Below, piece after piece: positions 14,986 to 32,066 of a stretch of 52,286 nt of DNA. Both the position numbers and the translations under genes were made by a program. Within the stretch, counting starts at the first letter, position 1. Every line of letters begins with the position of its first letter. The stretch covers positions 1 through 52,286 of the IMG/VR virus record IMGVR_UViG_3300046000_009647, one strand, 5' to 3'. The notes beneath the pieces were generated by a model. That model was not told the DNA's origin. It saw only the letters and a list, made by a program, of their open reading frames with translations, and ran no database searches. This DNA comes from a virus.

Positions 14986-15576
14986 TTAATATCCTAACAT
15001 TTTATTACTTTTCTTTCTATTATCTTCTTTCCAAAGTGGTTGGAAGTTAGTGTAATGATTTAACTTATAAATTTCTTCTTCATTCTTAGCTGATGAAATA
15101 GGTATTATATGGTCTATTTCCCATTCACCATGGTTTTCTAGAGTCATACCTTCAACAAATTGCGATTTTAAATGTTGGGTAAAATCTTCTAAAGTGCAAC
15201 CTAATACTTCTTCTGTTTTTTTTCCTTTTTTATAACTTCCTTTTAAACAATTTTTAAATGAAATTAAAATTAATGATCTAATATTATGAGTTAACCTGAT
15301 ATCAGGATCATTTTTCATTCTAGTTTTTTGATATTCTTTCCTATAACTTGTAGACTTTATATAATTATTTTTAGTATAATTTTTATCATAATCAGGGTTA
15401 TTATCTCTCCAATTTTTTAAATATAATAAGGTTTGAACTTTATTATTTTTTTGGTATTGAGTAACTCTAATTTTATCACAAGATTTACAATAATTATTTT
15501 TTTTATCCTTATTAGATTTATTTGAAGAAAAACTATCTAAAGATTTTTTAATTTTACATTTACTACATTTTTTCAT
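14986..15576 (-). CDS. HNH endonuclease with zinc ribbon (pseudoknot-associated copy 1)
   Basis: The 196-residue product starts with CSKCKIKKSLDSF and NYCKSC, two CxxC pairs that should bind zinc, then a basic linker, then the HNH core WEIDHIIPISSA, with YTNFQPLWKEDNRKKS at the end (about residues 150-190). It is closely related to the HNH protein at 31331-31954. Both genes share an 80-nt leader that folds as a pseudoknot. The gene is inserted between the RNase H and helicase genes. Confidence 0.88.
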   Translation of the reverse strand: MKKCSKCKIKKSLDSFSSNKSNKDKKNNYCKSCDKIRVTQYQKNNKVQTLLYLKNWRDNNPDYDKNYTKNNYIKSTSYRKEYQKTRMKNDPDIRLTHNIRSLILISFKNCLKGSYKKGKKTEEVLGCTLEDFTQHLKSQFVEGMTLENHGEWEIDHIIPISSAKNEEEIYKLNHYTNFQPLWKEDNRKKSNKMLGY

Positions 15577-15585
15577 TTGAAATAA

Positions 15586-15666
15586 GAAACCTACAGCTTT
15601 CAGGGTCGCGGTCCTTACTTGCTATAGGTTCTAAATTAATATTTTATATTTGCACCGCGACAATGC
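15586..15666 (-). ncRNA. Pseudoknot leader RNA, copy 1
   Basis: On the minus strand GTCGCGGT (15661-15654) pairs with ACCGCGAC (15612-15605), and AACCTATAGC (15630-15621) pairs with GCTGTAGGTT (15597-15588). The strands interleave, giving an H-type pseudoknot; an A/T hairpin (AATAT/ATATT) can form in the long loop. It ends 11 nt before the HNH start and begins 4-6 nt after an ATATTTAT motif. The copy at 31965-32045 has compensatory changes. The wobble pair shows that the minus strand is the functional one. Confidence 0.75.
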
Positions 15667-15670
15667 ACGT

Positions 15671-15678
15671 ATAAATAT
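15671..15678 (-). promoter_or_regulatory. Late-promoter-like motif before pseudoknot
   Basis: ATATTTATACGT on the minus strand is followed after a few bases by the conserved GCATTGTCGCGG, as expected if transcription starts at the edge of the structured RNA. Confidence 0.55.
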
Positions 15679-15688
15679 TGAAAACCTA

Positions 15689-16717
15689 TTATTTTTTATG
15701 AGAGTATTTAGTTAAGTATGAAAAGTTAGAACTTAACCAAAATTCTATATTGGGGGAGATTTGCCTTTCTAGTAAATCTGATTTATGTAATTGTAAAAAT
15801 CTTGCTTGATTTAAAGTATAAGGATTTTCATCTATTAATCTTTCCAATACAATTTCATCAGGTTCAGGAATGTTTGGATTTTCTAAAGACATTAACTGCT
15901 CATTAATCATTAATTGTCCTCTAAAATTCCATACATTACCATAAATGCCATTTTCTTCATGACTTTCTAAACTTTTAGAAATAATTTCCTTTAATGTTAC
16001 TTTTTTATCTCCTGTAATTTCAGGGAATAATTTGTATAATTTTTTAGGACCTAATCCTTTAACTCCAGGTAAGTTATCAGAACTATCACCCATTAGCACT
16101 TTGTAATTAATGAAGTTTTGAGGCCATAATCCATACTCATCAAATACTTCTTTGGGTCCATAGAATTTTTTCTTAATTGGAGAGTATACTTGTACTGTAT
16201 CACTACACAATTGTAAGAAATCTTGATCGGCTGACATTATAATGGACGAGTCAAATCTAGGGGCTAAGTAACCAATTAAATCATCTGCTTCTAATTTATC
16301 TCTAGTTATAATGCTGATTGGTAATGTTTTTAGATAATCAATTAATCTTAGCATTTGTTGAGATAACGATGCAGATTCATCTGCTAAGTCATCAAATGAA
16401 GACCAATTTGTAATTCTTTTTAATTTACGATTACCTTTATAATCAGCATACAAATGTTTTCTATTTGTAGTATTTCCTTCACCATCAAAAACACATATTA
16501 CTCTAGTAGGTTGTACTAAATTTACAACGTAAGCTAATGATCTTAAAAATCCAATCATACCCCCAACGTGTGTTCCTTGTGTGTTTGTACTGTTTATAAC
16601 AGCAAATGACCTTAGGAAAGTATTCATACTATCCACTAACAAAACCCTACTGTTTAAATGTAGAGTTTCTGTTTGTGAATCTTCTTTTATGTTGTTTAAA
16701 AGATCTTTATAATCCAT
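15689..16717 (-). CDS. rnh: 5'-3' exonuclease, T4 RNase H-like
   Basis: The 342-residue FEN-family nuclease should remove RNA primers and flaps from lagging-strand fragments. Metal-binding Asp residues are visible in LLVDSMNTF (near 28), CVFDGEG (near 100), LEADDLIGY (near 165) and SADQDFLQL (near 185). The helix-hairpin-helix segment is LPGVKGLGPKKLYKLFPEI, near 220-240. Two bases separate it from uvsX upstream, consistent with an operon. Confidence 0.93.
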   Translation of the reverse strand: MDYKDLLNNIKEDSQTETLHLNSRVLLVDSMNTFLRSFAVINSTNTQGTHVGGMIGFLRSLAYVVNLVQPTRVICVFDGEGNTTNRKHLYADYKGNRKLKRITNWSSFDDLADESASLSQQMLRLIDYLKTLPISIITRDKLEADDLIGYLAPRFDSSIIMSADQDFLQLCSDTVQVYSPIKKKFYGPKEVFDEYGLWPQNFINYKVLMGDSSDNLPGVKGLGPKKLYKLFPEITGDKKVTLKEIISKSLESHEENGIYGNVWNFRGQLMINEQLMSLENPNIPEPDEIVLERLIDENPYTLNQARFLQLHKSDLLERQISPNIEFWLSSNFSYLTKYSHKK

Positions 16718-31330: not shown

Positions 31331-31954
31331 TTATTCTTTTATAAATTTATCTCCTTTACTTCTATTATCTTCTTTCCAAAGGGGTTGTAAATTAGTGTAG
31401 TGATTTAATTTATAAACATCTTTTTCGTTTTTAGCAGAAGCTAAAGGTATTATATGATCAATTTCCCACTTTCCATGATTTTCTAAAGTCATACCTTCTG
31501 TAAATTTAGATTGTAAATGATGGATGAATTCTTCTAAGGTACAACCTAATATTTCTTCAGAATGTTTAGATTTAATCCAACCTTTTTTATGTTGTCTTAA
31601 AAATGAATCTTTAATTAAATTTCTAATACTACCTTTGAGCTTAAATATTGGATCAGTATTTCTTCTGATTTTATGATACTCATTAATTAAGGGTTGTTTT
31701 TCTTTATGTTTTGCAAGTATTAAATTTTTATTCTTATTATAATAACCCTTCCAATATTTTTCATAATAATTAGGGTTATTAACTCTAAATATAGCATCAG
31801 TAATTTTTTGTTTTTGGGATAAAGTTTTCCAATTTTCTTTTTTATATAATTTAGTACATTCTTTACATTTTACATCTTTACCATCTTTAGTTTTAGGATG
31901 GTTGTAAAAACTATCTAAAGATTTTTCAATTTTACATTTATTACACTTTTTCAT
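31331..31954 (-). CDS. HNH endonuclease with zinc ribbon (pseudoknot-associated copy 2)
   Basis: The 207-residue product has the same plan as that at 14986-15576: CNKCKIEKSLDSF and CKECTK at the N-terminus, a basic linker, and WEIDHIIPLASA with YTNLQPLWKEDNRSK in the HNH core (about residues 155-200). It is inserted between the tape measure gene and the small gene upstream. Its leader carries the pseudoknot at 31965-32045, so gene and leader seem to have been duplicated or moved together. Confidence 0.88.
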   Translation of the reverse strand: MKKCNKCKIEKSLDSFYNHPKTKDGKDVKCKECTKLYKKENWKTLSQKQKITDAIFRVNNPNYYEKYWKGYYNKNKNLILAKHKEKQPLINEYHKIRRNTDPIFKLKGSIRNLIKDSFLRQHKKGWIKSKHSEEILGCTLEEFIHHLQSKFTEGMTLENHGKWEIDHIIPLASAKNEKDVYKLNHYTNLQPLWKEDNRSKGDKFIKE

Positions 31955-31964
31955 TTTTGATAAA

Positions 31965-32045
31965 GAAACCTATGGTTTTCAGGGTCGCGGTCCTTACTTA
32001 CCATAGGTTCTAAATTAATATTTTATATTTGCACCGCGACAATGC
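31965..32045 (-). ncRNA. Pseudoknot leader RNA, copy 2
   Basis: GTCGCGGT (32040-32033) pairs with ACCGCGAC (31991-31984), and AACCTATGGT (32009-32000) pairs with ACCATAGGTT (31976-31967) perfectly. Relative to copy 1 the second helix has A-U to G-C and C-G to U-A changes, plus G-U to A-U. Loops AAGTAAGG and CCTGAAA are identical in both copies, which suggests that they are functional. Confidence 0.75.
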
Positions 32046-32049
32046 GGAT

Positions 32050-32057
32050 ATAAATAT
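32050..32057 (-). promoter_or_regulatory. Late-promoter-like motif before pseudoknot
   Basis: ATATTTATATCC on the minus strand runs directly into the conserved GCATTGTCGCGG, with the same spacing as in copy 1. Confidence 0.55.
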
Positions 32058-32066
32058 TTAAATTTA

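Follow-up and report, generated by a model that had tools for sequence, protein, structure and literature searches.

The stretch of DNA analysed here (the window, 52,286 nucleotides) contains two copies of what appears, on comparison with viral contigs, to be a new family of structured leader RNAs, widespread among phages and apparently undescribed. The topology, borne out by covariation, is that of two hairpins, the loops of which are joined by a 7 bp kiss. We give about even chances to the reading that this is a cis-regulatory 5' leader of phages acting as a kissing-hairpin attenuator, in which the second hairpin and the U-tract behind it would form an intrinsic-terminator module.

The two leaders and their fold

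The two leaders (copy A, 15586–15666; copy B, 31965–32045) are both present on the minus strand and are near-identical, as the first-pass annotation had described and as the alignment of the two copies confirmed. In copy A, the promoter-like motif AATATTTATA (15670–15679), recognised from the distribution of the motif in the window, is followed by a first hairpin, P0 (15651–15667). Its stem is formed by UGCA (15664–15667) and UGCA (15651–15654), and its loop consists of UU and the kissing strand P1, GUCGCGG (15655–15661). P1 pairs with P1' (15605–15611) in the loop of hairpin 2 (15588–15630), for which both covariation and predicted folds argue. Hairpin 2 is built of P2 (15621–15630 with 15588–15597), a loop E (AGUA, 15616–15619, opposite GAAA, 15598–15601) and the inner helix P3 (AGG/CCU, 15613–15615 with 15602–15604). 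The U-rich tract UUUCUUAUUU (15580–15589) lies directly after P2', the 3' strand of P2. The gene behind it (14986–15576, minus strand, 196 aa) encodes an HNH-type endonuclease, matching the PHROG endonuclease VII profile with an E value of 1.3e-23 and carrying the motif DHIIP...NxxPLW...N.

On the same strand, copy B has the promoter-like motif AAATATTTATA (32049–32058, from the same motif distribution), P0 (32030–32046) with the kissing strand GUCGCGG (32034–32040), and hairpin 2 (31967–32009), which contains P2 (AACCUAUGGU, 32000–32009, with ACCAUAGGUU, 31967–31976), loop E, P3 and P1' (31984–31990). It ends in the U-rich tract UUUCUUUAU (31960–31968), and its HNH-type endonuclease gene (31331–31954, 207 aa) was 52% identical to that of copy A in a batch alignment. 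Hairpin 2 of copy B is supported by compensatory changes relative to copy A and by covariation in the R2 family. The window also contains 11 tRNA genes, clustered at 135–2291 on the minus strand (ARAGORN).

The pairing strands that the annotation had proposed were all found in the sequence. The complement of GTCGCGG(T), (A)CCGCGAC, is located downstream in both leaders; that of AACCTATRGY (GCTGTAGGTT or ACCATAGGTT) sits just before the HNH gene, P2' ending about 11 nt before the ATG; and the ATATTTAT motif is directly upstream of each leader. Three P2 pairs differ between copies A and B (A-U to G-C, C-G to U-A and U-G to U-A), and all three keep pairing, while the segments AAGTAAGG and CCTGAAA are identical in both copies. 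The proposal of an H-type pseudoknot had to be revised, however: in most members the first strand lies in the loop of its own hairpin, P0, so that the contact is a kiss between two loops and not a plain H-type pseudoknot.

Covariation and extent of the family

Homologues were collected by pattern scans of viral contigs. The first loose pattern, made from the unchanged segments, returned mostly chance matches, yet also the first six true homologues, which were quite different in sequence and had the same pairings. Requiring a T-run after the stem gave about 20 further loci, and later patterns let the inner three pairs change. The scans yielded more than 120 distinct members (127 unique members were counted), and the true family is much larger, since one scan alone gave at least 95 members among the matches listed.

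The compensatory changes that had been noted between the two copies were borne out by these homologues. Using P2 and P3 alone, blind to the kiss, 112 unique hairpins were picked, against a single one in reversed sequence. A 6–8 nt Watson-Crick complement of the apical loop was found upstream of 111 of these 112 hairpins, compared with about 10 when loops were swapped between members; in the remaining hairpin (L183) the complement is present with one G-U pair. In the wider member set the kiss occurs in 40 distinct sequences. The P0 stem is conserved, covaries across members and is clearly better than in swapped controls, and of the 127 members, 111 had P0 and 116 had P2 in their minimum-energy folds. 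Among 44 diverse sequences, 97.6% of the P2/P3 cells were paired versus 58.7% in shuffles, and both-sided changes were seen somewhere in 12 of the 13 P2/P3 pairs. Since the homologues keep the pairings in the face of the reversed-sequence and shuffle controls and of these double-sided changes, chance can be excluded. G-U pairs far exceed A-C combinations in P2 (160 versus 4), showing that the fold belongs to the sense RNA, that is, to the coding strand. Homologues that break either helix were sought; instead, both helices were kept, also within the window's own lineage, where L559 has a third version of P2 (AUGAU/AUCAU), and L629 keeps P2 and has changed P1 to GUCGGAG/CUCCGAC and P3 to GAG/CUC. 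L591, L592, L596 and L637 form a subtype in which the P0 hairpin is longer and the kiss has sequences such as AATGCAA.

P3 occurs in eight pairings, including GAG/CUC, AGG/CCU, GGG/CCC, AAG/CUU, CAG/CUG, UGG/CCA and GGU/ACC. Because these inner three pairs vary, AAGG...CCUGAAA is no fixed sequence; the unchanged segments reported for the two copies are indeed conserved, and resolve into AGUA/GAAA plus a covarying 3 bp helix. Across members only AGUA/GAAA and one closing pair are invariant. We read AGUA opposite GAAA as the mark of an internal loop of the loop-E (sarcin-ricin) type.

In Rfam 15 no leader from the window or from 32 member loci matched a family above its gathering threshold, in agreement with the earlier remark that no known class fits, and the only matches at threshold were tRNAs, one tmRNA and GOLLD. 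The GOLLD RNA (L176, 591–1077) and the tmRNA (L163, 3840–4167) are located on leader-carrying contigs. Matches below threshold in a sensitive scan of the leader (HIV_GSL3, SpF39, RT-14 and others) were chance-like, and HDV-like, hammerhead, preQ1, SAM-II and guanidine-III RNAs were considered and dropped as the leader does not have their conserved cores. No published description of the leader RNA was found in the open-access literature. When most of the leaders were compared with GenBank phages by blastn, no match resulted; ten further isolated phages gave no convincing member, and a match in a Polaribacter phage lacked the fold. In one 102-kb phage contig there were three matches to leader-core patterns (L434, L438 and L602).

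For bacterial hosts, a covariance model search of 301 genomes scored only 21 candidates each and was uninformative; pattern searches, which covered the most frequent cores followed by a T-run, were used instead. Not one true member turned up among their matches in about 800 Bacteroidota host genomes, and a scan of 84,980 species with the AAGG core gave one true member among 109 matches. As far as these searches reach, the leader would thus seem to be a phage feature. These counts also weigh against the proposal that the RNA senses a ligand. Loop-loop contacts and E-loops occur in the aptamers of glutamine, purine and lysine riboswitches, so that the kiss and loop E could in principle form an aptamer for a small molecule. 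However, nearly all invariant bases belong to AGUA/GAAA, whose role is structural, and no metabolic gene was found downstream of the leaders. The glutamine riboswitch (glnA / downstream-peptide) does have an E-loop of the AGUA/GAA type and a long-range pairing, but its topology differs from that of the leader and it gave no match in the Rfam scans. A riboswitch is therefore very improbable, and a host-type riboswitch, as found before host metabolic genes, is unsupported.

Putative promoter, U-tract and proposed mode of control

A TAnn(n)TTTG box, the Bacteroidetes -7 promoter element, starts 9–16 nt before P0 in 70 of 111 members and 17–24 nt before it in 7. In the window, 20 of the 22 sense-strand copies of ATATTTAT are intergenic, mostly 14–39 nt before a start codon, and all three antisense copies are in coding sequence; the distance of 95–96 nt at the two HNH genes stands out from the rest. 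The 20 intergenic sites, on the gene strand, precede most transcription-unit starts, and ATATTTAT looks like the promoter element of this phage. As the box or motif sits just upstream, the RNA very likely begins with P0, the promoters being assigned by motif and position.

At the other end of the leader, the fractions of T at the successive positions after P2' were 0.98, 0.95, 0.83, 0.82 and 0.81 in the 127 members, in which a perfect U-run is over-represented because most were found by patterns demanding five T's. In a scan without the T requirement, all 15 new members had a run of at least three T's, and 12 of the 15 one of at least five. The tract is interrupted in the window's lineage (UUUCUUAUUU). 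A stable stem is directly followed by a U-tract, as in an intrinsic terminator or attenuator. In 109 of 112 cases an ORF begins with an ATG shortly after the leader, with P2' ending about 3–25 nt before most start codons, and the helix contains neither this ATG nor a ribosome-binding site.

Based on this layout, attenuation could proceed as follows. With transcription starting from the TAnnTTTG/ATATTTAT promoter upstream, P0 would be made first; some 20 nt later hairpin 2 would form, with P2, the AGUA/GAAA loop E, P3 and a loop of 7–8 nt. As the RNA emerges, this loop would kiss that of P0 through 7 bp and P2' would run into the U-tract. The kiss may then tune how efficiently hairpin 2 halts RNA polymerase, and this efficiency would set how strongly the endonuclease or replication gene behind it is expressed. 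Conjectural in this scheme are the termination itself, whether the kiss promotes or hinders it, and any signal or effector. The loop of such a terminator, 21–24 nt including loop E and P3, would be unusually large, and no conserved alternative (antiterminator) helix was seen by inspection. Known intrinsic terminators and leader attenuators share with the leader its place between promoter and gene and a stable stem with a U-run directly behind it; the leader differs from them in its loop-E interior, in the 7 bp contact of its loop with that of the preceding hairpin, and in the lack of a visible antiterminator.

The first-pass annotation had suggested control of endonuclease translation. Of the ideas it offered, control of expression fits best, but attenuation of transcription accounts better for the U-tract. 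In a translational scheme the kissing structure near the start codon would restrict, up to a given moment, the access of ribosomes or the decay of the mRNA, perhaps while bound by a phage or host protein through loop E. The short distance between P2' and the start codon and the downstream genes, which encode enzymes whose dose matters, are compatible with this. There is also a precedent in the mRNAs of the T4 homing endonucleases I-TevI, segB and mobE, in which RNA structure before the gene, in the form of hairpins near the start, governs expression (PMC2988022). The T4 hairpins, however, are simple, hide the ribosome-binding site on early transcripts, are made only on read-through transcripts, have neither kiss nor loop E and form no shared family across unrelated genes; the leader RNA very likely begins at a promoter, its helix holds neither the start codon nor a ribosome-binding site, and the conserved U-run at the base of the stem would be left unexplained. 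We consider translational control unlikely.

A second precedent is putL of phage HK022, which lies just behind an early promoter and folds into two stem-loops within about 70 nt (PMC9378689). The leader likewise has two stem-loops at what would be the 5' end of the transcript, and its size, place and tie to early replication genes match those of putL; it might act from there on RNA polymerase, making it resistant to later terminators. But put RNAs belong to an enterobacterial phage, act on later terminators, and have no terminator-like 3' U-tract and no described kiss. Moreover, homing cassettes of a single gene have no obvious need for processive antitermination, and sequence conservation of the leader is limited to loop E, which makes a put-like role quite unlikely.

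The promoter of its own, the terminator-like end and the compact, stable fold would also suit a small RNA of 75–95 nt, acting in trans, if transcription mostly ended at the U-tract and the gene were expressed from read-through. Against this, the kissing loops are already taken up by pairing in cis, a further conserved seed in single-stranded form is absent, and the start codon is nearly always close behind. The leader copies of one contig have different kissing sequences, which argues for a private pairing in cis. A trans-acting small RNA is in our opinion improbable, and attenuation in cis is preferred.

Downstream genes, mobility and related RNAs

The 105 downstream proteins included 33 HNH_3, 28 NUMOD4, 9 DUF6291, 5 NUMOD3 and 4 GIY-YIG proteins; primases, helicases and others were among the rest, and PHROG profiles added replication-initiation and replisome-organizer proteins. 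The link with HNH genes made from the window is therefore real, but the leader is not confined to endonucleases: the same leader precedes unrelated genes and also heads phage replication operons. Isolated phages carrying it are Croceibacter phage P2559S, Flavobacterium phage 11b, the Flavobacterium elemoE and elemoF phages and Olleya phage Harreka_1; in elemoF it heads the operon for replication initiation and primase/helicase.

The gap between the exonuclease and helicase genes of the window is 760 bp and holds leader and HNH gene, whereas it is 15–33 bp in relatives with a 95–98% identical exonuclease or helicase. The insertion, which brings promoter motif, leader and HNH gene together, also gives the 5'-3' exonuclease gene a recoded set of final codons (window 15689–15760, compared with L498, L501, L524 and L532). 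By this comparison, in which close relatives have the empty site, the window leader is part of a mobile insertion along with its HNH gene; unoccupied sites and a recoded exonuclease end look typical of a free-standing homing gene. In L508 and L521, different HNH genes occupy the same site behind a promoter-like AATATTTAT, without the leader RNA, indicating that the leader is useful and not obligatory for homing genes.

The joint movement of leader and HNH gene in the window could recall an RNA that serves the HNH protein as a guide or in mobility, or a self-cleaving ribozyme, both of which had been raised at the outset. That this RNA also precedes GIY-YIG, replication and other genes, and that the HNH genes just mentioned have no leader, argues against a guide. 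As for a ribozyme, the few invariant positions amount to no conserved catalytic core, and no Rfam ribozyme matched. Either role is scarcely credible.

The closest known RNA, and the one informative lead from Rfam, is TEG147 (RF03535), a cis-regulatory RNA of Staphylococcus aureus, the consensus of which shares hairpin 2: a stem, G-AGUA, a short inner helix, a loop, GAAA, a stem and a U-tract. Leaders scored 25.7, 25.4 and 19.4 bits against this model, not reaching the gathering score of 56.1; the leaders L374 and L377 are such matches below threshold, with the same loop-E hairpin and U-tract. TEG147, reported from a genomic island (PMC3053349), differs in its longer apical loop, in the absence of an upstream kissing hairpin from the 60-nt model and in its phylum. 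The likeness may reflect kinship or convergence, and it is possible that this terminator design extends beyond the phages of Bacteroidota.

Structured leaders of Bacteroidota phages have been little described. The present family has more than 100 sequenced members, strong independent covariation in four helices and members in cultured phages of Flavobacterium, Croceibacter and Olleya; it is ready to enter Rfam, and points to the promoters and gene starts of phages whose genomes otherwise lack annotation. More tentatively, at clearly less than even chances, an intrinsic terminator that is gated by a private kiss of its loop with that of the preceding hairpin could represent a new class of phage regulatory RNA, a common module of the replication operons of flavobacterial phages that has been captured many times by homing endonucleases, with the kiss or loop E as the handle for a timing factor of phage or host. 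If the kiss gates termination, the attenuator would be physically unusual in its design. The leader offers a testable handle on the control of replication genes, and on how selfish endonuclease genes are expressed at a tolerable level.
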